Translations under genes and position numbers: made by a program
Part shown: positions 8,505 through 20,625 of the stretch, piece after piece
Layout: the number at the start of each line of letters is the position of its first letter
Numbering within the stretch: position 1 is the stretch's first letter
The notes under the pieces: generated by a model
Seen by the model: only the letters and a program-made list of their open reading frames with translations
What the model was told of the DNA's origin: nothing
Database searches by the model: none
DNA from: Lentisphaerae bacterium GWF2_49_21
Lineage (GTDB): Bacteria > Verrucomicrobiota > Lentisphaeria > Victivallales > GWF2-50-93
Direction: 5' to 3'
Assembly (NCBI GenBank): GCA_001804805.1
Contig: MHBH01000013.1
Location: forward strand, 1-46,903
DNA length: 46,903 nucleotides

Positions 8505-9938
8505 ATGAAGACTCCAAATATAGTATTCATACTTGTCGACGACATGGGCTGGATGGATCTCTCATGCCAGGGCAGCAAATTCTATGAGACACCGAACATC
8601 GACCGGCTCGCCCGCGAAGGATTGCGTTTTACGGATGCGTACGCATCATGTCCGGTCTGCTCGCCGACGAGAGCGAGCCTGCTGACAGGAAAATATCCTG
8701 CCCGGCTCGGTCTTACGCATTATATATGGAATAATCCCGTGCATTACAATGGAACTTATGAAAAAGGGAAGTTGCTGGGAGTGCCCTATGTTCCCTACAT
8801 GTCAACCCGCGAAAAATCACTTGCGTCGGCATTGAAACAGCATGGCTACAAGACTTGGCATATCGGGAAATGGCATCTTGGATCAGAGGAGTACTGGCCG
8901 GAAAAGCACGGATTCGACATAAACATCGGAGGCTGTGAGAAAGGTCATCCTTCCGGACGCGGACACTATTTCGTCCCATGGGACATCCCAACAATCCCTC
9001 CCAAGGAAGGAGATTGCTTTCTGACGGACCGTCTCGGAGACGAGGCTGTGGAGCGCATCATGAACAACGATGGGACTCCTTTTTTCCTCAACATGTGGTT
9101 CTATGCCGTCCACACTCCCGTCCAGGCTAAGCCAGAAAAGATAAAAAAATTTGAACTCAAGGCGAAAGAGATGGGAATTGACAAGATAAATCCCTTGGTC
9201 AAAGGGGATTGCTTTCCCAGCGAGCACAAGAAGAATCAGAGGATCGAACGCAGGATCATCCAGTCAAATCCCGCATATGCAGGTCTGGTCGAGCATTTGG
9301 ACGAGAATATCGGGAAGATACTTGACGCGCTTGATCGTAAGGGGCTGGCCGAAGACACGATAGTAATTTTTACTTCCGACAATGGCGGGCTCAGCACGGC
9401 TGAATCTTCTCCCACATGCAACACACCCCTTCAGGAAGGCAAGGGATGGATGTATGAAGGTGGAATCAGGGAACCATTGATTGTCAGGTGGCCCGGGAAG
9501 ATCAGACCGGGCGTCACCGATTCAGTCGTTACGAGCTGCGACTTCTATCCGACGATCCTTGAGGCATGCGGACTTCCGCTGGAGAATGCCCAGCATCTTG
9601 ATGGAAAAAGCTTCCTGCCTGTACTTAGAGGGGGGAAATATGATCGCGGATCCGTGTTCTGGCATTTCCCGCATTATGCAAACCAGGGAGGAACTCCGGG
9701 ATGTGCAATTCGCAGGGGAGACTGGAAACTGATAGAATTCTTCGAGCACGGGATCGAGCTGTACAACCTTAAAAATGACATAAGCGAGAAGGACAATTTA
9801 GCTCCAATCCATCCCGAACTTGCCGAATCGCTGCGCGCAGAACTGCACGGATGGCTGAAGGAGATGAACGCAATCGTGCCTGCGAAAAATCCTGAATGGA
9901 AGCCATGGCGGGATGCGGATCTGGATCCGCTGGATTAG
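8505..9938 (+). CDS. Sulfatase, formylglycine-dependent (arylsulfatase A type)
   Basis: A 477-residue type I sulfatase. The metal-binding start NIVFILVDDMGWMD and the modification motif C-S-P-T-R (Cys52, followed by ASLLTGKYPARLG) are intact, so Cys52 should be converted to formylglycine by a sulfatase-modifying enzyme not present in the window. Further family motifs are GKWHLG, TIVIFTSDNGG and the terminal 'RRGDWKLIEFFE.GIELYNL'. There is no signal peptide, so cytoplasmic action on imported sulfated oligosaccharide is likely. GAGGTG precedes the ATG. It shares a unit with the upstream GH5-like enzyme. Its TAG stop overlaps the TAA stop of the convergent GspE/PilB gene within the 4 bases TTAG (9935-9938). 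Confidence 0.92.
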   Translation: MKTPNIVFILVDDMGWMDLSCQGSKFYETPNIDRLAREGLRFTDAYASCPVCSPTRASLLTGKYPARLGLTHYIWNNPVHYNGTYEKGKLLGVPYVPYMSTREKSLASALKQHGYKTWHIGKWHLGSEEYWPEKHGFDINIGGCEKGHPSGRGHYFVPWDIPTIPPKEGDCFLTDRLGDEAVERIMNNDGTPFFLNMWFYAVHTPVQAKPEKIKKFELKAKEMGIDKINPLVKGDCFPSEHKKNQRIERRIIQSNPAYAGLVEHLDENIGKILDALDRKGLAEDTIVIFTSDNGGLSTAESSPTCNTPLQEGKGWMYEGGIREPLIVRWPGKIRPGVTDSVVTSCDFYPTILEACGLPLENAQHLDGKSFLPVLRGGKYDRGSVFWHFPHYANQGGTPGCAIRRGDWKLIEFFEHGIELYNLKNDISEKDNLAPIHPELAESLRAELHGWLKEMNAIVPAKNPEWKPWRDADLDPLD

Positions 9939-11710
9939 ATTTTCTTGTCGTCGCCTTTTTCGCCCATGTCATAGCTTATGAGGAAGTTTCCTGTTATCCT
10001 GCTGACCTCTTCAATGCTGGTGAGGCCGCGGCTGAGCTTTATCCATCCATCTTCGCGGAGTGTCTTCATTCCCTTCTGCCTGGCGGCCCTTCTTAATTCG
10101 CTTGAAGCCGCATGGGCTGCGGCAAGATCCTGGATCTCTTCGTCAAGCAAAAATATTTCATAGATGGCGAGGCGTCCCTTGTATCCAGTACTGTTGCATT
10201 TCGCGCAGCCTGCGCCCTTCCATGCCTTTACCTCCTCCGGCCTGACTCCGAGGAAATGGGATATTTCCGTGCGGATATGCGGAGTGATGTTTTCATCAAG
10301 TACTTTGCAGTTAGGGCATATTCTCCTGACAAGGCGCTGGGCGATACAGGCGACCAGCGAGGAGGCGAGAAGATATGGTTCGACTCCCATGTCGATCAGC
10401 CTGTTGACGGCTCCGACTGAGTCGTTCGTGTGGAGGGTGCTGAAGACAAGGTGTCCGGTCAGCGACGATCTGATTGCTATCTCCGCAGTTTCAGAGTCGC
10501 GGATCTCGCCGACGAGGATGATGTCGGGATCGTGGCGGAGTATGGAACGGAGCCCGCTGGCGAAAGTAAGTCCGATCTGGCTGTGCATCTGGATCTGGCT
10601 GACGCCCTGCATTTCGTATTCGACGGGATCCTCGACAGTGATTATCTTCCTGTCCTTCCTGGAATCTGCGATTTTCGCAAGAGCCGCGTAGAGGGTCGTG
10701 GTTTTTCCGCTTCCAGTCGGGCCGGTGACAAGTATGATTCCATGCGGGAGATCGATGAGCTTCTGCAGGATCCTCAAGTCCGAATCCTCAAGTCCGAGAT
10801 CGGACATTGAGAGGAAGACGGTCTTGCGGTTGAGTATCCTGAGGCATATGGTTTCGCCGAACCTGCTGGGCATTATTGAAATACGCAGGTCGAATTCTTC
10901 AGTGCCCGCCTTTACCGAGATCCGTCCGTCATGAGGCAGTCTTCTCTCGGCGATGTTCAGATCCGCCATGATCTTCAGCCTTGAAGTGATTGCCTCATGG
11001 AATTTGCGGACACCGTCCGGGACCGGGATGTCCTGCAGCATTCCATCTATCCTGTAGCGGAGCTTCACGCTGTCCTGGAAAGGTTCGATGTGTATGTCGG
11101 TGGCGGCCATTTCGAGTGCGTCTATGAGGATCTGGTTGACCAGGCTGATGATTGGTACCGACTCGTCGTCGACCTTGATGTCGCCGCCTGCGGATGAATA
11201 GCGTATTTCCCTGCTCTGCAGTCTTTCAGCGATCTTGGATTCACGGATTTTGATGACAGTTTCAGCTCCAAGGCCATAGACGCTCTTGAGGGTCATGTTG
11301 ATTTCATGGGAGGTGGCGAGGAGCGGTTCGATCCGTTTTCCGACGAGGAGGCGCAGGTTTTCCAGGACCCGCATCGACGGGGGGGTTGAGAAGGCGGCCT
11401 CGAGCGTGTTCTGCTTGAGCTTCAATGGGACGAACTTATAATGGATGGCGGTCTTGGCGGAGATGCATTTCTTTGCATCCTCCTCGATATTGATCTTGTG
11501 GAGGGATATCAACGGGAGTCCGGTGCATTCGCTGAGGGCCTTGTAGATCTCGTCCTGGGGGCAGCAGTCGAGTTCGATCAGCGACTGATGGGCGGGGATG
11601 CCCTCCCTTTTCATGCGTTTCTGGGCAATCTCGCCCTGCTGTTTTGTTATCCTGCCACGGCCTTCGAGCAGACTGAAGATATCGCCTTTGGTTGCAGTAT
11701 TCTCATTCAT
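9935..11710 (-). CDS. gspE: GspE/PilB-type secretion or pilus assembly ATPase
   Basis: A 591-residue hexameric traffic ATPase. An N-terminal GSPII_E_N-like domain (residues 20-145) precedes the ATPase core, with Walker A GPTGSGKTTT (residues 330-339), Asp box motif EDPVEYEMQGVSQIQ, Walker B DPDIILVGEIRDSETAEIA and the His box 'SLTGHLVFSTLHTND'. A tetracysteine zinc motif (CPNC ... CAKC, about 475-520) is intact, as in GspE/PilB. It powers pseudopilin or pilin polymerisation at the inner membrane. It is the last gene of a minus-strand operon and overlaps the preceding gene by 8 bp. Neither a GspF/PilC platform gene nor a secretin is in the window, so T2SS versus T4P cannot be decided. Confidence 0.95.
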   Translation of the reverse strand: MNENTATKGDIFSLLEGRGRITKQQGEIAQKRMKREGIPAHQSLIELDCCPQDEIYKALSECTGLPLISLHKINIEEDAKKCISAKTAIHYKFVPLKLKQNTLEAAFSTPPSMRVLENLRLLVGKRIEPLLATSHEINMTLKSVYGLGAETVIKIRESKIAERLQSREIRYSSAGGDIKVDDESVPIISLVNQILIDALEMAATDIHIEPFQDSVKLRYRIDGMLQDIPVPDGVRKFHEAITSRLKIMADLNIAERRLPHDGRISVKAGTEEFDLRISIMPSRFGETICLRILNRKTVFLSMSDLGLEDSDLRILQKLIDLPHGIILVTGPTGSGKTTTLYAALAKIADSRKDRKIITVEDPVEYEMQGVSQIQMHSQIGLTFASGLRSILRHDPDIILVGEIRDSETAEIAIRSSLTGHLVFSTLHTNDSVGAVNRLIDMGVEPYLLASSLVACIAQRLVRRICPNCKVLDENITPHIRTEISHFLGVRPEEVKAWKGAGCAKCNSTGYKGRLAIYEIFLLDEEIQDLAAAHAASSELRRAARQKGMKTLREDGWIKLSRGLTSIEEVSRITGNFLISYDMGEKGDDKKI

Positions 11711-12341
11711 CCAGCATCACCTTTTCGCTTGATTGGAGCGTTATGGCCTGTGTCTCGTTCTTCTTGTTGGTTATCATCAGCATGTCAGATGTGATCATGT
11801 CCACAGAGAGCCCGTCGAGCTTGTCTCCGGGAGCGACAGTGAAATCCTTTGTCTCCTTTGTCTTGCTGTCGAAGACCGATATGAGCGCGAGCAATTCTCC
11901 GGAAGCGGATTTTGTAACTCCTTTGAACTCGATGTTCTTGAATTCAGCATAGCGCATTGTCAGGACAGTTGTCTTTTTCGGCGGAGGAGGGGGAGGGGGC
12001 TTGGTTTCCGGAGGTTTCGGTTCCACTTTAGGAGGCTTGGGCGGCGGCGGTGTAACTTTTTTCGGCTGTTTTACGGCGAATGTCTTCTGGAAATAGAAAG
12101 GCTTCTCGTCCTTGCCCAGGGGCGGGACCGGATCCAGGAATGCAAGCGCCTTTTCGTTCAGCAGGGAGCGGGGTTTCGGGGCGTTCGTGGACATCGACAG
12201 GTCGGCATCCTTCGAGCTCATGAGGTCGAAGACAAAGAAGAATACAGCGGAAAGGAGCAGTATGATTGAAATACAGAAAATAGTTTTCTCCCAGTCTTTC
12301 TGGACGCTCTCATTCAGTTTTTTTGCATCCATGGTATTCAC
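11703..12341 (-). CDS. PilP/GspC-like inner-membrane protein with proline-rich linker
   Basis: A 212-residue protein with one membrane segment (about residues 20-42, TIFCISIILLLSAVFFFVFD), then a Pro/Lys linker (residues 95-125, e.g. PPPPKPPKVEPKPPETKPP), then a small C-terminal beta domain (residues 126-212, TMRYAEFKNIEFKG ... GELLALISVFD). Topology and position match PilP or GspC, which link the inner-membrane platform to the secretin; sequence identity to either is not obvious. It overlaps both neighbours (8 bp downstream, 4 bp upstream), so it is translated with them. Confidence 0.65.
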   Translation of the reverse strand: MNTMDAKKLNESVQKDWEKTIFCISIILLLSAVFFFVFDLMSSKDADLSMSTNAPKPRSLLNEKALAFLDPVPPLGKDEKPFYFQKTFAVKQPKKVTPPPPKPPKVEPKPPETKPPPPPPPKKTTVLTMRYAEFKNIEFKGVTKSASGELLALISVFDSKTKETKDFTVAPGDKLDGLSVDMITSDMLMITNKKNETQAITLQSSEKVMLDE

Positions 12342-13300
12342 GCTCCTTCAGGAAGTATTTTTGGCGGAGCCGGTTTGCTGCGCACTGGTTCGCCTGAACC
12401 TTCGCCCGTCGGAAAATAAAACGCCGAGCATTCGATTTCCACCTTGATGATCCTTGCTTCCACGGACAGCTGGGTGTCGTCGTTCCTGATGTCCGGGACC
12501 AGGGACATCTGTATCTGGGAGACGGGGAAGAAATTGTCGCCCGACTGGATTTTGCCAAGGAAGGAATATAGGCTTTCAACAGTTCCGTAGAGGGCAAGGC
12601 GGATTGGAATGGCCATTACATACGGAGACTTGTCCTCATCGTAGAGACGATATTCGGTGACTGGCATGAACTGCAGCCTTGCGGCCGGTTTTTTCCGTCC
12701 CTTCTCGTCCTGTATGATGACCTTGTCGTCGGCCTGGACGCGGAGTCCGCTCTGCGTCACGAGAGTTGTCAGCTTGTCCAGCACCCAGACCTGCAATACC
12801 AGCTGGTAGATGTTCTGTGTCTGTGTCTTTTCTCCGAGCCCGAGTATCGATTCTGAAAGATATATGTCCCTTGATGCCAGCTTGATCTCAAGGTTGTTGT
12901 ATTCCTCCTGGTAGTCGAGCCTTGTCACGTCATGCGTGAAGTCGGAATGGGTTTCAAAAATCTTCTTGACGCTGCTGCTGAGCGTGCCGGTGCATCGCTG
13001 CAGGATCTGCTGTGATTTCTGCTTTATGCCGGTTATTTCCTTCTTGTCCTTCAATGCCCCATCGGGCCTGCCGCCTTCCAGTTCAGTTTTTTTCAGCTGG
13101 ACATATGTCTCAAGCCGTCCCGGATCGAGAGGCCAGCCTGAATGGCCGAGTTCGTTCTTGGTATTGCTGATGTAGGCGCGGTCGCTGCGGACCTTGACCG
13201 CCAGAGGCCTGACAAAAAGAATATGCGTGGCGACAAGGACAACCAGCATGATGAGCAGGGCGATGAAGAGGCGGACATGCTGTCTGGGCCATTTTTTCAT
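12338..13300 (-). CDS. PilO/GspM-like inner-membrane protein
   Basis: A 320-residue bitopic protein: short cytoplasmic start (MKKWPRQHVR), a membrane segment (LFIALLIMLVVLVATHILFV, residues 11-30), a helical/coiled-coil region (35-110), and a C-terminal domain with a PilO-like pattern 'IPIRLALYGTVESLYSFLGKIQ'. In PilO the equivalent strand-helix unit forms the ferredoxin-like dimer. The last 40 residues are extended and proline-rich. It lies exactly where pilO is expected, between the pilMN-like fusion and the PilP-like gene, overlapping the latter by 4 bp (ATGA type). Confidence 0.68.
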   Translation of the reverse strand: MKKWPRQHVRLFIALLIMLVVLVATHILFVRPLAVKVRSDRAYISNTKNELGHSGWPLDPGRLETYVQLKKTELEGGRPDGALKDKKEITGIKQKSQQILQRCTGTLSSSVKKIFETHSDFTHDVTRLDYQEEYNNLEIKLASRDIYLSESILGLGEKTQTQNIYQLVLQVWVLDKLTTLVTQSGLRVQADDKVIIQDEKGRKKPAARLQFMPVTEYRLYDEDKSPYVMAIPIRLALYGTVESLYSFLGKIQSGDNFFPVSQIQMSLVPDIRNDDTQLSVEARIIKVEIECSAFYFPTGEGSGEPVRSKPAPPKILPEGA

Positions 13301-13302
13301 TT

Positions 13303-15144
13303 TTACTTGCCCTTCTTGATTTCGACGAGATTGGCCTGGTTGACGCTGTCTTCGGCAAAAGGCAGCTTGATTGCGAAATCGCGGAACCTCTTCCCGCCGA
13401 GCTGGGAATTGATTTCACGGTTGTTTACGACCTGCGAGATCCACGGGGATGACATTATATCCTCCCTGCCGGTTCTTTCCTCCTCGGAGAGGATGTCCAC
13501 CTCCTCGGTGTTTGAGCTGAAAAGAGGGACATTGCTCAGCTTTGTCTGTATCTGGCGGACCAGGTCGTAATGCTCCTTCTTGCTTGAGGAGATGGTGAAT
13601 CCAATGAGGACGAGGGAGCGGTTCTCGGTCATTTGATTTACGCAGACGGATTCGTTCCTGCCTCTTTTCATGAAGGAAGCAGGATCTTTTGCCGCCAGAT
13701 TTGCCATGAAGATGTTCTGGGTGTCCTTCGATGCGTTCTTCTCCAGTTTCAGCCCATGGAAGCTTTTTTCGTCGGCAAGATAGCTGAAGAAGAAATTATC
13801 CCCCTTTATCTTTCCGACTTCCCTGACGGCTGAAAGGAACCTGGGGATGTTGTTGCCGGTGATTGCGAACGGTACTATCATCTTTTCATAGTGCCTTATG
13901 TCATCGCCCAGCTTGTCCAGCTTTGGAATGAACACTTCGCAGGCCTGCAGGCGTGTGATTATCTTCCTGTTCTGGAGATCTTCTTTTTCCAGTTTCAGAT
14001 AGAAGTCGATGAGGTAGAGGAATATTGCGATCACGAAGATGAAGACCGCCGCTGAAATGAACTTGTAGTTCCTCTTCCTGAGCGAGACCCACCTTATCTC
14101 CGAAGGTGCGAGGGAGATGCGGATGTCCTCTATTTCCATGGCCTGGAGCGCAAGCCCGTATGCGCAGGCCAGTTCAGGAAGAAGTTTCCCTTCCTTGTCC
14201 ACCGGACCGAAAAGTTCGATTTCGCATTCCATGAAATTGGACATGAGTATTTCCGGCAGGCCACCGATAAGCGAGCCGCCTCCGCAGAGCCAGAGCTTCA
14301 CTATTTCCATTCCTGCCGTCTCGGCATTCTCGTGGATCTTCCATTGTTCCACGGCGTTCTTGAGTTCGGAGATGAGAGTCAAGGAGACCTTGTGCAAGGG
14401 GTGTTTTTTGTTCTTGGAGCTGATTTCAGCCTTCAGTTTCTCCTCCTCGGCCTTGGCCTCGTCCATCTCCATTGACTCCATAAGGGCGCGGTTGAACTTG
14501 TCTGATCCGAACAGGAGGCTGTTTATGGAGAGGATCTGTCCGCCGGCAAATATTATCACGGTGGAGTTTTCGGCGCCGATCTCGATTATCATCTGGGGCT
14601 TTTCGACGTCCTTTGTTTCAGGATGCAGATTGAAAAGGGCGTTTATGAGGGCCATGCTGTTCATGGTCATGTCTGCAGGAGTGACGCCGGCCGACTCGAG
14701 CACCTGCAATTTTTCAGCGACGACTGAATAGCGGGAAATTCCTATCAGTACGGGGTTGTTTCTTCCGTATTTCGGCGGCATGATGTGATAGTCATGGATG
14801 AATTTCTCCTCGGAGATTCCTGACAGCTGCTGCGTCTCATAGGCGATCATCTCCTCCAGCTTGGCCTCGGGAGCTACAGGGAAGTCCCTTACCTGGACAG
14901 TGGCGAGGTATTGTTGAAGCCCCAGGCATATGTCGCGGTTTTTCCAGCCATTCTGCTCCAGCCATGTGGAAAGGCTCTGGCTGAGTTCTTCATCATCGAG
15001 GATTCCTTCTGCGCGCAGTTTCAGCAGCTGGTGGGAAACGAGGCTGACTCCTCCTTCTTTTGTCCAGGAAAGCTCTGCAGCCTTAATAGTGCTGGAGCCT
15101 ATGTCGAGGCCGACCGCCTTGCGTGTTTTATTCTTCCAAAACAT
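13303..15144 (-). CDS. PilM-PilN fusion-type pilus/secretion assembly protein
   Basis: A 613-residue protein. Residues 1-370 have the actin-like PilM fold: KAVGLDIGSSTIKAAELSW (phosphate loop 1), CLGLQQYLATVQVRDFPV, 'MIIEIGAENSTVIIFAGGQ' and 'LCGGGSLIGGLPEIL'. A membrane segment follows (about 383-402, FISAAVFIFVIAIFLYLIDF), then a periplasmic region of about 210 residues with coiled coil and a PilN-like half. In most bacteria PilM and PilN are separate proteins; GspL is the natural fused counterpart. The start is ATG 15144 (MFWKNKTRKAVGLD), because the 26 codons upstream in frame overlap the pseudopilin coding end; AAAGGAA lies upstream. The stop is 3 bp from the next gene. Confidence 0.78.
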   Translation of the reverse strand: MFWKNKTRKAVGLDIGSSTIKAAELSWTKEGGVSLVSHQLLKLRAEGILDDEELSQSLSTWLEQNGWKNRDICLGLQQYLATVQVRDFPVAPEAKLEEMIAYETQQLSGISEEKFIHDYHIMPPKYGRNNPVLIGISRYSVVAEKLQVLESAGVTPADMTMNSMALINALFNLHPETKDVEKPQMIIEIGAENSTVIIFAGGQILSINSLLFGSDKFNRALMESMEMDEAKAEEEKLKAEISSKNKKHPLHKVSLTLISELKNAVEQWKIHENAETAGMEIVKLWLCGGGSLIGGLPEILMSNFMECEIELFGPVDKEGKLLPELACAYGLALQAMEIEDIRISLAPSEIRWVSLRKRNYKFISAAVFIFVIAIFLYLIDFYLKLEKEDLQNRKIITRLQACEVFIPKLDKLGDDIRHYEKMIVPFAITGNNIPRFLSAVREVGKIKGDNFFFSYLADEKSFHGLKLEKNASKDTQNIFMANLAAKDPASFMKRGRNESVCVNQMTENRSLVLIGFTISSSKKEHYDLVRQIQTKLSNVPLFSSNTEEVDILSEEERTGREDIMSSPWISQVVNNREINSQLGGKRFRDFAIKLPFAEDSVNQANLVEIKKGK

Positions 15145-15194
15145 ACGATTTCGGGTTCCTTTATCATCTGGATACGGCTTTTTGAGGGCGAAGG

Positions 15195-15893
15195 TTACGG
15201 TTCCCAGGCGCCGTCTTCCCATTTCGCCCTGCTCATGAAATAGTTACCGGCAAACCCGACGTTCAGGACAGGCGCTTCATTATTTGGAATAACTCTTGAA
15301 GGGGAATAGTCTTTAAGCCTTTTTACATGCCAGTAGCATCGGATCACCGGGAAAAGAGTCGGATCATAGCCTTCTCCGAGCGCATGGGTCCCGTCTCCAC
15401 CCTGCTTGAGCTGGATATTCTTCAATTGGGCCCAGGTGTAGGGGGAGGTGAGCCCGGATCCGGTGAGGTTCCAGGCGCAGTCGGAGTCAGTGAACTCATA
15501 GAAATAACTTACATTTCCGACAGCCGTGTTGGGATTGATATGGATTCCGGTATTTCCTTGGCGGTCATAGGCTGTTGAGTGCTGCTGGTCGGCCCTTGCG
15601 AGCCACGCGTTTGCGGGAGTGTTGGACGGGTTGGAGTCCGAAGGGCATAGATAAACTCCGGTGCTTGTCATGTAGTCGGGATACAGACGTGAAACCCAGC
15701 CCACATCCGCGTCAGTGTTGTCATGCTTATAGGTTATTATGGCAAGTCCTATCTGCTTGAGGTTGTTCATACAGCTGGCCTGTTTGCCCTTGTCCCTGGC
15801 CTTGCTGAGGGCGGGAAGCATAAGACCGGCGATTATTGCGATGATCGCAATAACGACAAGTAGTTCGATAAGTGTGAAAAGTCTTTTATTCAT
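15195..15893 (-). CDS. Pseudopilin-like protein, prepilin N-terminal methylation helix
   Basis: A 232-residue protein starting [18 protein letters not shown], the type IV prepilin helix with Glu at position +5 after the expected cleavage. The residue before Phe is Leu, not the canonical Gly, a departure common in Lentisphaerota/Planctomycetes pseudopilins. The rest carries the usual '[23 protein letters not shown]' start and 'YLCPSD' motif of the DUF1559-like/H-X9-DG-type pseudopilins of PVC bacteria. It is the first gene of the PilMN/PilO/PilP/GspE operon, so it may be the major pseudopilin or a co-expressed minor one. Confidence 0.88.
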
Positions 15894-16045: not shown

Positions 16046-16614
16046 TCATTTTTCTTGAATTTCGGTTATGGAACCGTCGGGGGAAAGTTTGAACGCCCTT
16101 CGGGTGCCGGGACGTTCACGATGACGTGCGATTGCAGTATAAGTCCTGCCGTCGGAAATGATTTCAAAGACGTATTTGGGATCCTTGTTGATGCTCTGTA
16201 TTATCTCTGCGGTATTCTTGTTGGCCGACAATGTCTGCATGTCGGCATAGCTTCCGTATTCACTCTTATATAGTTCCTGGACCTGTCTGATTGACAAGAG
16301 ACCGTGCGTGGCTCTTGCTTCCTCAGGAACATGCCAAGAGTCATGCCCGAAAGGATTGCGAGTATCGCAACGCCTGTCAGGATTGTGGTGAAATCTCCGG
16401 AGGAGTGTGAGAATTTCATCTGCCGCTTCCACCAGCCGTATTTGTCGATCATCTTTTCCAGCTGGGCGCTTGAAACCGTTTTCAACATGTTCTTCTCGGC
16501 TTCGGAAAGATCGAGATTGGCAAGTGTCGCATCGCGGTCGTTCATAAGGCTGTAGCGGAATACCACGTCCTCCGACGCGCGTTTCAGTACCGCCTGCAGT
16601 TTCTCGTCGTTCAT
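16046..16614 (-). pseudogene. Frameshifted paralogue: leader-like domain + TM + pilin-like domain
   Basis: Two frames are needed to read this gene. From 16614 the first frame gives MNDEKLQAVLKRASED, a helical N-domain with DLSEAEKNMLKTV and QLEKMI, then a membrane segment (TTILTGVAILAILSGMTLGM) up to RKQE near 16315, after which it turns to nonsense and stops at 16201. The adjacent frame carries the rest: LLSIRQVQELYKSEYGSYAD ... FKLSPDGSITEIQEK, ending at 16046 and aligning with the C-terminus of the intact neighbour. The junction at about 16300-16325 is best explained by loss of one base (or a sequencing/assembly error). Unlike its paralogue it lacks the Cys after the membrane segment. Its ATG overlaps the TGA of the upstream paralogue (ATGA). 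Confidence 0.75.
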
Positions 16615-17183
16615 GGTTTGATCTCGCTTGATTTTCCTTTTGAATCAATCAGGTAGATCGGCCGGTTTGAACGAGTCTTGTGCTTGGCGGTAATCAGGAA
16701 ATCGTCTTTCAGGACCTTTATCTCGTATTGATACTGGTCCTTTTCGGATAATTTATCGATGAAGTTGGCCTTAGTCAGGGATTCGATGTCAGTATATGTA
16801 CCATGTTTTTGGTAATAGGCCGCTTCAGCGAGGAAAAGCTGATTAAGTTTTGATTTCGCCACAACACCTGATGCAGTGCAGCCGGCGGTTGATGTTACCC
16901 CAATAAAAAGTCCGGCAGAAATCGCAGTTAAAGCAGCTGCGGTCACGGTTGCGGTAAGATATGGGAAAGAACTATTAGAACAAACCGTTTTTCCCCACCA
17001 TGCTGTTTTTAGTTTGAGCATTTTTTCCAGCTGCTCGTCCGAAACTGACTTGAGCATGTTCTTCTCGACATCCGAAAGGTCAAGCTCGTTGACAGTTGCA
17101 TCACGGTCTTTCAGAAGACGATAGCGGAACACTTCGTCTTCCGACGCGCGTTTCAGGACCGCCTGCAGTTTCTCGTCGTTCAT
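16611..17183 (-). CDS. Leader-like domain / membrane segment / pilin-like domain protein
   Basis: A 190-residue protein in three parts. Residues 1-57 are a helical, acidic domain (DEKLQAVLKRASEDEVFRYR, LDLSDVEKNMLKSVSDEQLE) that resembles NHLP/Nif11-type RiPP leader sequences and is shared with the genes at 16046-16614 and 19393-20625. Residues about 75-100 are a membrane segment ending in STAGC (Cys102), which could be a lipobox. Residues 108-190 resemble the globular part of type IV pilins (LNQLFLAEAAYYQKHGTYTD ... LIDSKGKSSEIK). CAGGA precedes the ATG. The first 42 coding bases differ from the paralogue at one position while later parts diverge. Function is unknown; an anti-sigma-like or small lipoprotein role is an alternative. 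Confidence 0.7.
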   Translation of the reverse strand: MNDEKLQAVLKRASEDEVFRYRLLKDRDATVNELDLSDVEKNMLKSVSDEQLEKMLKLKTAWWGKTVCSNSSFPYLTATVTAAALTAISAGLFIGVTSTAGCTASGVVAKSKLNQLFLAEAAYYQKHGTYTDIESLTKANFIDKLSEKDQYQYEIKVLKDDFLITAKHKTRSNRPIYLIDSKGKSSEIKP

Positions 17184-17243
17184 ATTTTTTCAATTCCTGA
17201 TTTCGTTTTGACGATTTAGCTTGTCTTTATCCCGGAGGGATAG

Positions 17244-17428
17244 AGTAATGAAGCCTGTGGTTTCAACCACAGGTAAATCATACATGAACAATCCGTCTTG
17301 AAGAGACGGAGTCATTCCTGGGTACAGTTCGTGTTTTTTGGGCATCTTATCCTATCCTCACTCCGTCCCTTCAGGACGAAACCATTTTTGTTACAGTACC
17401 TATGGTTGAAACCATAGGCTTCATCACT
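17244..17428. repeat. Hairpin-rich repeat element interrupting a leader-gene relic
   Basis: A 185-bp element with inverted ends AGTAATGAAGCC (17244-17255) and GGCTTCATCACT (17417-17428; one mismatch). Inside are hairpins CCTGTGGTTTCAACCACAGG (17254-17273), CCGTCTTGAAGAGACGG (17293-17309), CGTCCCTTCAGGACG (17364-17378) and CCTATGGTTGAAACCATAGG (17399-17418). This arrangement (outer pair plus inner pair of palindromes) is typical of interspersed BIME-type elements. It starts immediately after codon 14 of the relic at 17470. Confidence 0.65.
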
Positions 17429-17470
17429 ATACGCCTTCAGCGTTGAACTCTGTAGTTTCTCGTCAGACAT
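17312..17470 (-). pseudogene. Truncated start of a leader-domain gene, running into the repeat element
   Basis: ATG at 17470 is preceded by AAAGGG about 9 nt upstream and begins MSDEKLQ, nearly matching MNDEKLQ of the two paralogues; at base level GACGAGAAACTACAG matches them with one mismatch. After about 14 codons the frame enters the inverted-repeat element and ends at 17312, giving a 52-residue open frame with three Cys. Most likely it is a remnant of a further copy interrupted by the element. A short precursor-like peptide is possible but unlikely, because residues 15 onward are repeat sequence. Confidence 0.45.
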
Positions 17471-17584
17471 ATCTTATTGCCCTTTGAATTATGAAAAAAA
17501 TACATTCATTCGAAGTTGGAAGTTCGACCTGTCCCCCGTAGCCTTGGCGAAGGAGGAAGTTGAATGTTCGATGTTCAAGTCTTG
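17429..17584. other. Gap after the radical SAM gene: relic start plus degenerate repeats
   Basis: Besides the relic start codon region this stretch holds repeat words (GAAGTTGGAAGTTCGA, CCTTGGCGAAGGAGG, GAATGTTCGATGTTC) similar to other gaps of the window. The 'CCTTCGCCAAGGCTACGG' word (minus strand) is echoed near 39155-39180. No further gene is supported. Confidence 0.5.
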
Positions 17585-19066
17585 TCATCTCCCCGCCCTC
17601 GTCGCCAGCTCCTGCGGTGTGATGCGCGGAGAATGCGCCCCGCAGCTCTCGGATCCGTCGGACGGCTTCTTCTCCTGTTTCTCCGGATAGAATCCGAACT
17701 GGCGCAGCAGTTTCAGTTTCGGCAGGACATTGTTCTCCAGATCCATGTGGAAGAACCCCGAGAAGATGTCGGGATTGTCCATGATCATCTTGAAATATTC
17801 CTTGTACCGCTCCGGAATCTCCACCTCTCCGCCATAACAGAGCTCGTGTCCGGTGAAGACGAATTCCGGAAGGAGGTACGGACAGAATTCAAGCTTGTAC
17901 TTCTCCGACCATTCCTTGTAGAGATCCGTCTGGGGCAGCAGGGAAAGCAGGCTTGGCAGGATGCGTGCGCCCATCATGCGGAACGACACCATCTGGAACA
18001 GCGACTGGTTGAAGTCATCCATCGTCTCGAACGGGAATCCCCACATGAAGAATGCGTCCACCCTCGGAAAAATCTCAACTGCACGGGGAATTATCTCCAG
18101 GCTGTCGGCTGCGGTGAATCCTTTTTTCGTCAGGGCAAGCACCTTGTCGGAGCCCGACTCGATCCCGAAGCGGAGCTCCAGGCATCCGCAGTCGGCCATG
18201 GCGCGCATCATCTCGTCGTCAACGAGATTTACTCTTCCGAAGGCCTTCCACTCGACGTTCAAACCGGATTTGCGAAGTTCGCAGCAGAAGTCCATCACCT
18301 GCTTTTTCCCGGAAACGAAAAATTCGTCCTGGAAGAGGAAAAGATCGATGCCTGCCTCCTTGTTGAGGAAGCTCATTTCTTCGACGATGTTCTTTGCGCT
18401 CCTGGAATAGCTCTCCAGGAACCATACGGGCGCGACCGAGCAGAAAGTGCAGGGGTAGGGGCATCCGCGGCTGGTCATCATCCCGTAGCCGGCATATTTC
18501 TTCAGGTTGATCTTGTGGAATGACGGGAATGGAATGGAGTCCAGCTTGCATATTCGGTCCTGTTTCGGATTATGGCATATTCCGCCGTCGGTGTCGCGGT
18601 AGGAAATTCCTCTTATCCCTTCGAGCGAAGATCCGGACTGCAGGGCGCGCATCATTTCTACTCCGCTCCTCTCGCTTTCACCGCGGGCTATGATGTCAAC
18701 CCATGGAAAGCGTTTGAGGATTTTGTCTTCGACGGCTGTCGAACCGACTCCTCCGAGGACGACGACATGTTCCGGATAGCGCTGTTTCAGGGCGCGTATC
18801 GCTTGGATTGTGAAGGGGAGCAGGTTTGCCATGCATGAAAGGCCGATCACGGGTGCGGGATCCGCAAGGAAGTCCAGGAAGTTGTTCATGTCAAAGGGAT
18901 CATCGCAGGAGCATGTCTGGTAGTCACGGAAATCCACTTTGAATCCGGCGTCCTCGAGCGCCCGTGTGAGGTAGAGGGGGCCGAGCGGGACATGCAGTTC
19001 GCGTTCGATCTCCTCGCCGTAGCGCATGAAGAGCATGTTGAGATTGACAAGTGTAATGTCGGCCAT
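17585..19066 (-). CDS. B12-binding radical SAM protein
   Basis: A 493-residue enzyme. Residues about 25-145 form a cobalamin-binding Rossmann-type domain (VPLGPLYLTRALEDAGF, VIGLSCMANLLPF, HVVVLGGVGST), without a clear DxHxxG. Next comes the radical SAM core with C-x3-C-x2-C (Cys202, Cys206, Cys209 in SRGCPYPCTFC), a GESE-type bridge before it, and core motifs LELRFGIESGSDKVL and FFMWGFPFET. Such class B enzymes methylate or rearrange unactivated carbons, often in natural-product, lipid or RiPP pathways. GGAG lies 7 nt before the ATG. It sits between the large leader-domain protein and the small paralogues, all on the minus strand, suggesting that one or more of these is a partner or substrate (inference). 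The last 25 residues are polar and probably disordered. Confidence 0.88.
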   Translation of the reverse strand: MADITLVNLNMLFMRYGEEIERELHVPLGPLYLTRALEDAGFKVDFRDYQTCSCDDPFDMNNFLDFLADPAPVIGLSCMANLLPFTIQAIRALKQRYPEHVVVLGGVGSTAVEDKILKRFPWVDIIARGESERSGVEMMRALQSGSSLEGIRGISYRDTDGGICHNPKQDRICKLDSIPFPSFHKINLKKYAGYGMMTSRGCPYPCTFCSVAPVWFLESYSRSAKNIVEEMSFLNKEAGIDLFLFQDEFFVSGKKQVMDFCCELRKSGLNVEWKAFGRVNLVDDEMMRAMADCGCLELRFGIESGSDKVLALTKKGFTAADSLEIIPRAVEIFPRVDAFFMWGFPFETMDDFNQSLFQMVSFRMMGARILPSLLSLLPQTDLYKEWSEKYKLEFCPYLLPEFVFTGHELCYGGEVEIPERYKEYFKMIMDNPDIFSGFFHMDLENNVLPKLKLLRQFGFYPEKQEKKPSDGSESCGAHSPRITPQELATRAGR

Positions 19067-19392
19067 GAATTGAACTCCTATACAAAAAAGATAAGAACAG
19101 CTCTTGCGAGCTTAACTACGAACGAATGCTCAATTTGAAATAAGTTTATAGTTACTAATAAGGTCATTAAATAGTTTACGTTTTCTGGGTAGGGACGGCT
19201 CACCGAGCCGTCCGCACTTCGACACGCTCAGGATAAACGGCGCTCTCGGCGAGAGCGCCCTACCGTAAACAATATCATGCACACATTAGTAATGCCGCAA
19301 GGCATGTTCTCGGATTCAATTTTATTTTTCTTAAAATTCCTTACTTCAACATTCGATATTCAGTATTCGGAATTCGACATTCATTTTCTCAC
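19067..19392. repeat. Gene-free gap with paired REP hairpins
   Basis: Contains a single end unit AACAGCTCTTGCGAGCTTAA + CTACGAAC (about 19096-19122), then a symmetrical pair. The first half is GTAG + GGACGGCTCaccGAGCCGTCC (19189-19213); the second is GGCGCTCTCggcGAGAGCGCC + CTAC (19239-19263). The pair is bracketed by GTTTACG and CGTAAAC and by outer copies GTTTATAGTTACTAA (19144) and TGCCGCAAGGCATGTTCT (19293-19310). The last 50 bp (19338-19383) are degenerate 'ATTCGATATTCAGTATTCGG' words. No gene or promoter is supported. Confidence 0.7.
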
Positions 19393-20625
19393 TTACCGTA
19401 TCCCGAAGGAATAGTCCTTTTCCAGATCTCGGGGCTGCCGGATTTCCTTTTGCTTTATCATCTGGGCGAGCAGGGGTTCAGAGAGAGGTTTCGCCTGCCG
19501 GAAATATTCTGCCGCCTTGTTCTTCATCTTCTGCTGCCAGGAGACGACTCCGCAGAAAAGAGAACTGTCAATGGTGCTTGCCTCCTTGAGACGGGTGCTG
19601 ATTTCGGTGATTGATAATGAGCTCATCGGAATATTCTTCTGGATTACGACCGCCTCCATTTTCATTTCAACCTTCAGTTTTCCGTCTGCAACGCTGATTA
19701 TTGTCGCTGTCTCACCGGAGTTGTCAATTGCAAGGCTGATTTGTTTTCCGGCATCCTTCTCAAGGCTTTTGAGAAGAAAGGCGTTCAGTTTTTCCAGCGA
19801 ATCGAGGATGCGTGCGATCTCAGGATATTTGTCCTTGTCTTCGGATTTCGAATACTTCTCCCTGGCCTCTGCGAAATTGCCTTTGAGAATGGTTGCACCG
19901 AGTTCGTTCTTGTCCATGAAGGCGGACAACGCTTCACTCACATTCATTATGTCTGAACTGTCAATTCCACGCTCGGGCGGTCTGCTGCCGGCGGACTGTG
20001 CGAACTGGAGCTGACTTGGCAGGATAGTATTTGTATCCAGGGAATCCTCCCCGTTTGCGCCGGCGGGTGTAGGTTGTGCTTCTGTCGGTTCCACAGTCTT
20101 TGGGCGGTCCGGGCGGATGCCGCGCGACATATTGTTCGGAATGTCCGGACGTGAGCCTTTGGTCAAGGGCTGGTAGGAGTTGCTTGTGTCCTGAGTATTT
20201 TGCTGGACGGTGGCGTTCTGATTGCCCGGCTGGTCCGGCCGAATTCCCTGTGGAACATTATTTTCGCATCCCTGCAGGATTGATGCTCCGACGGCGGCAA
20301 GCATAAGGACTGCAGTTTTGCTCATGAAGGCGTTTTTCTGCTGTGGTGCGACTTTCGCAGAATCAATTATTTTCTCAAGCTGGTTTTCAGGGATGACGGA
20401 CAGCATTGCTGTTTCCGCAGGAGTGAGTTTCAAATTTATTGATTCGGCCGCCTTACCGCGTTCGCGGACCAGTTGTTCCTTGAATTCCGGATCGACCGAC
20501 GCCTTTTTCACCATGACCTCGATGCCGCGTGGGATTTCGCCGACCTTGGTGCCGCAGCCCGGAGGACGTCCGCCGACAATTGTAGTATATACGGCTTCCT
20601 TCTCTTCAATGCGTTCCTTCTTCAT
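19393..20625 (-). CDS. Large leader-like-domain protein with internal lipobox and GIRPD repeats
   Basis: A 410-residue protein that I cannot name. Residues 12-34 carry a Gly/Pro motif (YTTIVGGRPPGCGTKVG), then 35-90 a helical domain (PRGIEVMVKKASVDPEF, LKLTPAETAMLSVIP, NQLEKII) homologous in pattern to the N-domains of the small paralogues at 16046-17183. A hydrophobic segment (103-119) ends in ILQGC (Cys120), a plausible lipobox placed unusually far from the N-terminus. After it, four G-[IS]-R-P units (GIRPDQP, GSRPDIP, RGIRPDRP, GSRPPERG; residues 127-220) lead into a C-terminal alpha-rich domain (225-410). The GIRPD-type repeats and the N-domain together recall a PVC-group family seen in several genomes (from memory, unverified). 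It lies upstream of the radical SAM gene. Confidence 0.7.
   Translation of the reverse strand: MKKERIEEKEAVYTTIVGGRPPGCGTKVGEIPRGIEVMVKKASVDPEFKEQLVRERGKAAESINLKLTPAETAMLSVIPENQLEKIIDSAKVAPQQKNAFMSKTAVLMLAAVGASILQGCENNVPQGIRPDQPGNQNATVQQNTQDTSNSYQPLTKGSRPDIPNNMSRGIRPDRPKTVEPTEAQPTPAGANGEDSLDTNTILPSQLQFAQSAGSRPPERGIDSSDIMNVSEALSAFMDKNELGATILKGNFAEAREKYSKSEDKDKYPEIARILDSLEKLNAFLLKSLEKDAGKQISLAIDNSGETATIISVADGKLKVEMKMEAVVIQKNIPMSSLSITEISTRLKEASTIDSSLFCGVVSWQQKMKNKAAEYFRQAKPLSEPLLAQMIKQKEIRQPRDLEKDYSFGIR

Follow-up and report, generated by a model that had tools for sequence, protein, structure and literature searches.

A conserved pairing of leader-type proteins with a B12 radical SAM enzyme, and its possible role in modifying exported proteins

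Why should three bacterial proteins carry a common helical domain of about 55 residues, and why does a B12-binding radical S-adenosylmethionine (SAM) enzyme lie among their genes? This question is raised by a locus (positions 16046–20625) in Lentisphaerae bacterium GWF2_49_21, on contig MHBH01000013.1, of which a stretch of 46,903 nucleotides (hereafter, the window) was analysed. The original prediction had compared the domain with NHLP-type leaders of ribosomally synthesized and post-translationally modified peptides (RiPPs) and proposed that it might serve as a recognition tag. Our results establish the leader genes and the B12 radical SAM gene as a real, conserved two-part system, and we consider it slightly more likely than not that the two components make up a leader-directed protein-modification system. 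All genes concerned lie on the minus strand and are transcribed in the order P0004, P0005 (the class B radical SAM enzyme), P0001 and a second P0001-like gene; the reading frames of P0004, P0005 and P0001 are intact.

19393..20625, minus strand: P0004, a 410-aa leader-bearing putative substrate (GGRPPG segment, NHLP/Os1348-type leader, hydrophobic segment, GxRPDxP repeats and C-terminal domain)
20368..20526, minus strand: leader domain of P0004, NHLP/Os1348-type (NF038399 E 1.6e-6, whole-genome search)
17585..19066, minus strand: P0005, a 493-aa class B (B12-binding) radical SAM enzyme, with Pfam domains above cut-off
16611..17183, minus strand: P0001, 190 aa, with leader domain, hydrophobic segment and type IV pilin-like domain, without GxRPD
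17019..17174, minus strand: leader domain of P0001 (NF038399 E 1.9e-7, whole-genome search)
16046..16614, minus strand: second pilin-type leader gene, frameshifted at ~16300–16330
16450..16605, minus strand: leader domain of the frameshifted gene (NF038399 E 6.4e-6, whole-genome search)

A leader-type domain on three neighbouring proteins

Each of the three N-domains matches the NCBIfam model NF038399 (E 1e-7, 2.3e-6 and 2.2e-6; 53–54 of 63 model positions), the Os1348-type leader model of the nitrile-hydratase-leader (NHLP) clan, so that the common domain claimed for these minus-strand genes is borne out. When the whole 5.9-Mb genome was searched with this model, these three were the only full-length matches (E 1.9e-7 to 6.4e-6), the next being partial (0.13). 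Because direct similarity between the P0004 domain and the other two is weak (E 0.007–0.2), their common match to NF038399 carries weight. The likeness to NHLP-type leaders extends to relatives in other genomes: 14/14 match NF038399 (best 4e-11), 8 of them also match nitrile hydratase alpha and 3 the NHLP leader model, and weak PF14407 (RiPP) or PF02979 matches were found in 10/10 relatives scanned. No hidden Markov model (HMM) of an anti-sigma or other non-leader family matched the domain in the window proteins or their relatives.

The predicted fold points the same way less firmly. In a Foldseek search with a model built from a shallow alignment, 6lk7 (the Os1348 crystal structure) ranked 3–5 of 350,542 chains, at E 0.13–0.33, and the leader residues of P0001 (model of low overall confidence, pLDDT 61) aligned in VIA with OphA (Z 6.9), SonA (4.9) and Os1348 (4.3, 58 residues). 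These matches are weak and the domain is a small helical bundle, so the fold is not decisive by itself. By sequence, the domain reads as a RiPP-type leader of the NHLP clan, to which the predicted fold adds weak support.

The original layout needed two corrections. The domain had been described as N-terminal, and the membrane-type hydrophobic segment expected behind it is present; in P0004, however, the leader starts only at about residue 34, behind the conserved TTIVGGRPPGCGxxVGxIPRG, and not at the extreme N-terminus. Moreover, 16046–16614 (569 nt) does not encode one protein in a single frame: the leader and hydrophobic segment are open in 16201–16614, and the pilin-like C-terminal part continues in a different frame past the shift. 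Either the gene has suffered a frameshift or the sequence contains an error; DNA alone does not tell the two apart. Separately, between the radical SAM gene and P0001 lies an element of ~250 bp with 40-nt inverted repeats (17195–17450; 91 matches in the genome, many partial). Just upstream of it, at ~17469, a short stretch reads MSDEKLQ, which resembles the start of P0001 (MNDEKLQ) and may be what is left of a third leader copy that the element interrupted.

A search of 149 relatives also returned NF038399 matches in five genomes (G017, G023, G028, G061 and G071) that are short and partial and were set aside as separate RiPP clusters, one locus having been read fully. These loci (L039–L043, in genomes of the same taxonomic order) hold tandem ordinary NHLP-type RiPP precursor clusters with no sign of a B12 radical SAM enzyme.

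Pairing of the leader genes with a B12 radical SAM enzyme

The enzyme between the leader genes is, as predicted, a class B radical SAM protein with an intact cysteine motif:

18440..18463, minus strand: CPYPCTFC, P0005 residues 202–209, the 4Fe–4S motif CxxxCxxC (three cysteines invariant in 19 loci)

P0005 contains an N-terminal B12-binding domain (PF02310, 1.6e-11) and a Radical_SAM domain (PF04055, 2e-16), both exceeding the Pfam cut-off. Its top NCBIfam match is ApyD (NF050148; 5e-48, 163.9 bits, far under the equivalog cut-off of 750 bits), and the nearest curated families (ApyD, BchE and HpnJ) all score far below cut-off. A fold search with the P0005 model returned the B12 radical SAM structures OxsB, TsrM, CysS, MgmA and TokK as best matches. 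In addition to the cluster motif, C295 and C395 are invariant across the 19 loci. The C-terminal tail ESCGAHSPR (window 17627–17647) has a conserved cysteine, with SCGAH kept in 18/19 loci; it is of low confidence in the model and probably disordered. In three other genomes (G637, G595 and G699; L117–L119 and L121–L123), related B12 radical SAM genes stand in tandem pairs, the second gene having an in-frame TGA in 3/3 genomes; these pairs possibly belong to the known CUAEP-tail radical SAM selenoprotein family.

The association between leader and enzyme was surveyed in both directions. When 84,980 species genomes were scanned in the forward direction with the P0004-type leader as the sole seed, 17 loci came to light, spread over at least six phyla: Lentisphaerae, Planctomycetota (Phycisphaerae and Pirellulales), Verrucomicrobiia, Muiribacteriota, Zixibacteria, Coatesbacteria, a Desulfomonile bin and one "Nealsonbacteria" bin, the names of metagenome-assembled genomes being those deposited and misbinning of single contigs being possible. 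At 14 of the 17 loci, a full radical SAM gene whose product is 68–75% identical to P0005 directly adjoins one to six leader genes; at a fifteenth (L062), the start of the enzyme is visible before masked sequence; and the remaining two (L057 and L063) reach a contig edge, which leaves the enzyme untestable there. The pairing thus holds in 15/15 testable loci. The same-family genome of an uncultured Lentisphaerae bacterium (G004, contig L047) repeats the order leader protein, radical SAM enzyme (75% identical), leader protein. Across the 15 host genomes, the 40 leader matches are all located beside the enzyme, within its locus, or at the edge of a contig, except for three elsewhere in enzyme-bearing genomes.

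Conversely, a profile of the enzyme was run against 388 genomes of the window's phylum and 392 Planctomycetota. It gave two strong matches in the former (the window and G395) and seven above 700 bits in the latter, and 9/9 of these strong matches in 780 genomes have leader genes alongside; five of the nine (G395, G454, G482, G567 and G759) were absent from both profile builds. Leaders occur in nine of the 392 Planctomycetota, namely the seven with the enzyme plus G611 and G710, a co-occurrence with a Fisher's exact p of 1e-13, which is overstated because the genomes are related and three of them seeded profiles. Leader and enzyme also co-diverge (Mantel r 0.85, 19 loci, p 2e-4), a correlation for which common ancestry alone would suffice. 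A leader occurring without the enzyme would have spoken against the proposed link; in the genomes searched, only the two planctomycete remnants are of this kind. In G611, a deletion has left the leader joined in frame to the final ~60 residues of the radical SAM enzyme, and in G710, only the leader end and the hydrophobic segment are left, so neither was retained as an enzyme-less leader. At L106 (8722–9198, minus strand), a leader and hydrophobic segment are joined in frame to a radical SAM C-terminal tail ending in ESCGAHSPRGQDLATR, apparently a deletion remnant, and L049 holds a decayed second radical SAM tail (10291–11043) downstream of its intact enzyme.

These data bear on the proposal that the shared domain is no leader but some other helical domain, similar to anti-sigma or LigA domains, which only happens to lie beside the enzyme. 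Small helical bundles do resemble one another, and LigA-like DesB domains score in a structural second look (Z 4.9–5.3). Against this stand the uniform match of the relatives to the Os1348 leader model, the co-occurrence statistic with its reservation, and adjacency in ~20 loci; we regard this explanation, already contradicted by the association data, as highly improbable. Among the 21 neighbourhoods compared, only generic regulators and antisense open reading frames accompany the leader genes and the radical SAM gene. The latter is the sole conserved enzyme gene; a gene for a multinuclear non-haem iron-dependent oxidative enzyme (MNIO) beside the precursor is not conserved, nor is any protease, peptide exporter or sortase-like gene. 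With no other gene conserved, the arrangement looks like a system of two parts.

Export segment, repeated motif and cargo

What would such a pair act on? The features of P0004 suggest an answer:

20530..20586, minus strand: pre-leader segment TTIVGGRPPGCGTKVGEIP, P0004 residues 14–32 (related segment before the leader in 27 relatives)
20266..20334, minus strand: hydrophobic segment NAFMSKTAVLMLAAVGASILQGC, a lipoprotein-like or Tat-like signal segment by sequence
20227..20247, minus strand: GIRPDQP motif, proposed modification site
20137..20157, minus strand: GSRPDIP motif, proposed modification site
20101..20121, minus strand: GIRPDRP motif, proposed modification site
19969..19989, minus strand: GSRPPER, degenerate motif copy

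Behind the leader lies a hydrophobic segment of the form FLGKxAAxMLAALG, ending in many members in a lipobox-like cysteine (LQGC in P0004). RRxF[LM] precedes this segment in 11/55 proteins, and the Pfam model TAT_signal matches one protein only (E 0.067). Judged by its sequence, the segment may be an export signal or membrane anchor, either lipobox-like or resembling signals of the twin-arginine translocation (Tat) pathway.

Behind the hydrophobic segment, P0004 carries repeats of the form [T/S]-[K/R]-G-[I/S]-R-P-D-x-P, three strict GxRPDxP copies and one degenerate; this repeated G[IS]RPDxP is its strongest feature and was missed in the original prediction. The C-terminal parts of 55 leader proteins contain 57 strict GxRPD copies, against 0.3 in composition-preserving shuffles. 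RPD occurs 58 times, 57 of them with G two positions ahead; in 53 of 57, P stands two positions behind. At least one strict copy occurs in 35/55 leader proteins, and 14/55 have a motif-like copy at the C-terminus or a few residues from it. About half of the members, including P0004, also contain a GGRPPG segment before the leader, nearly invariant where present, and this pre-leader GGRP has the GxRP core in common with the repeats. The literature located on the motif (searched as GIRPD and GIRPDRP and available only in part) consisted of unrelated papers.

One might suppose that the leader docks the enzyme but that envelope machinery reads GxRPDxP, itself left unmodified, as a sorting or anchoring signal, the enzyme modifying, say, the cargo or the GGRPPG segment. 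The frequent C-terminal position of the motif resembles that of a sorting tag, the motif-less pilin-type members retain the leader, and the GGRPPG segment is nearly invariant, all of which would suit this explanation. Yet no sortase-like or other partner gene is conserved near the pair, and a GxRP core common to the pre-leader segment and the repeats is expected if one enzyme reads both. We judge a sorting role quite unlikely and return to the motif as a candidate modification site.

Between motif copies, we found TonB_C (1.5e-6), CarboxypepD_reg (1e-12) and PP-binding/acyl carrier protein (ACP) domains (5e-6), all above the Pfam cut-off, and members with folded cargo reach 620 aa. The C-terminal part of P0004 resembles parts of two leader-less proteins in its own genome, one with a kinase-like N-terminal part. 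The expectation that the regions downstream of the leader would look exported or membrane-bound, rather than like small peptides, is upheld. A conventional RiPP pathway, in which proteolysis releases a small peptide with modified GIRPDRP cores and the large cargo domains are accidental fusions, would account for the leader family, for several tandem precursors per single enzyme and for the several short precursors (135–200 aa) that end in GIRPDRP. Conversely, no protease or peptide exporter is conserved near the pair, recognizable folded domains lie between motif copies in many members, and a hydrophobic or lipobox-like segment separates leader from motifs; we hold this explanation to be unlikely.

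The cargo of P0001 is of a different kind. In sequence searches, its C-terminal part matches Pilin_GH (E 0.0015) and ComP (0.006), both below the Pfam cut-off, and phmmer against the PDB gave no useful match. In its AlphaFold model, of moderate confidence at best, residues 97–190 resemble type IV pilins, the top VIA matches (Z up to 9.7, 86 residues, 3.2 A). Type IV pilins have a class III prepilin leader, whereas P0001 instead has an NHLP domain and a hydrophobic stretch before its predicted pilin fold; the class III prepilin peptidase site (G/F, TLIE...) was not found in P0001, while a DUF1559 pseudopilin at 15195–15893 has it. That pseudopilin, with its N-methylation motif, belongs to a type IV pilus/type II secretion operon (window 9935–15893, same strand; also T2SSE ATPase and PilM) directly downstream of the pilin-type leader genes. 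In one planctomycete (L048), a tandem pair of pilin-type leader proteins directly follows the enzyme, and in another (L102), one such protein is encoded; these members lack the GxRPD motif, and no type IV pilus or type II secretion genes were seen downstream of the L048 pair.

A proposed mechanism and its relation to known systems

We propose a mechanism in three steps. First, the NHLP/Os1348-type helical domain of ~55 residues would serve as a docking tag for the adjacent B12 radical SAM enzyme; docking of the neighbouring enzyme by the leader appears well supported. Second, the enzyme would, in the cytoplasm, modify GxRPDxP residues in flexible stretches around the cargo, and possibly the pre-leader GGRPPG copy also. 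The chemistry would be C-methylation of an unactivated carbon, which we infer by analogy to be the most likely reaction because it is the commonest of this enzyme class. Third, the protein would be exported or anchored in the membrane via the hydrophobic segment, placing a modified protein at the envelope. The cargo would be interchangeable and ordinary (pilin-like, TonB_C, carboxypeptidase-regulatory or ACP). Within the window, P0004 would be the motif-bearing substrate; P0001 and the frameshifted gene beside it are pilin-like members that lack the motif.

Several observations weigh against this proposal. The NF038399 scores of the window domains (27.6–34 bits) are below the curated cut-off of 40 bits, and they are divergent relatives rather than curated members of that family. 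Twin arginines are not present in the window's own proteins, and an export signal ~90 residues inside a protein is unusual; the segment may be a simple membrane anchor. Strict GxRPD is missing from 20/55 leader proteins, among them the window's own pilin-type members, and so the motif is not the sole substrate feature. The target residue and reaction are predictions from the enzyme class and the conservation of the motif.

Comparison with known systems shows which parts of this arrangement have precedents. The nearest relatives of the leader are the Os1348/PosA-type NHLP RiPP precursors (NF038399), whose N-terminal helical leader is homologous by HMM and perhaps, on weak matches, similar by fold (6lk7). 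These precursors are small (85 aa in Os1348), and the enzymes acting on them are of the HEXXH and MNIO–nitroreductase types (PMC7726476, PMC12636437). The present leader is instead followed by an export or anchor segment and, in many cases, large cargo, and its partner is a B12 radical SAM protein. ApyD, a B12 radical SAM enzyme that acts on a ribosomal substrate to give beta-methyltyrosine (PMC11117315), represents the RiPP C-methyltransferases; it shares the enzyme class and is the closest NCBIfam match to P0005, but acts on a small peptide as part of a multi-enzyme cluster, whereas no partner enzymes are conserved here. The nearest analogues are bufferins (PMC12452194) and DAG-RiPPs; like the modified proteins larger than 30 kDa described with the latter (PMC12636315), they are exported or lipidated and MNIO-modified. 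As with the present proteins, these substrates are made on ribosomes and bear export or lipoprotein signals; some are large, and some have motif repeats. They differ in using an N-terminal Sec/signal peptidase II (SPII) signal or a C-terminal recognition motif with an MNIO, in place of an NHLP leader with a B12 radical SAM enzyme. Such hybrids are expected to be leader-independent (PMC12636315); here, by contrast, a leader precedes the export or lipoprotein signal. Finally, radical SAM methylation of a whole protein is known from MgmA, which methylates a glutamine (PMC11796369), and from Mmp10, both of which C-methylate methyl-coenzyme M reductase (PMC11796369, PMC5943407). MgmA ranks with the best-matching folds for P0005, but each of these enzymes serves one substrate of its own, which, unlike the proteins here, has neither a leader nor a repeated tag motif.

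Measured against a RiPP precursor, the leader and adjacent enzyme fit and the small-peptide product does not; because the cargo is folded and no protease or exporter is conserved, the leader protein works like a RiPP precursor but is not one. The original prediction held that a modified membrane-tethered or exported protein would be an undescribed arrangement. Given the exported and lipidated RiPP-type proteins known with MNIO enzymes, this is too broad; what appears undescribed is narrower, namely a B12 radical SAM enzyme combined with a folded NHLP leader that is followed by an internal export or anchor segment and large cargo. No matching arrangement was found in the accessible part of the literature on RiPP leaders with radical SAM enzymes and pilins, lipoproteins or Tat signals, most subscription journals lying outside the search.

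A broader generalization, to which we give a little less than even weight, is that a RiPP-type folded leader acts as a portable tag on almost any exported domain, recruiting a B12 radical SAM enzyme to mark GxRPDxP before export in at least six phyla. Pilin-like proteins would be linked to RiPP-type recognition, a link described in no paper found among the partly accessible sources. If the proposal is true, a RiPP-style leader has been repurposed: in place of small peptides, whole proteins destined for export would be marked by means of a single enzyme, a single leader and a seven-residue motif that recurs. The system is compact, comprising two genes, and its high sequence identity persists between distant phyla; should the enzyme indeed act on its neighbours, leader-programmable modification of arbitrary proteins by radical chemistry could follow.

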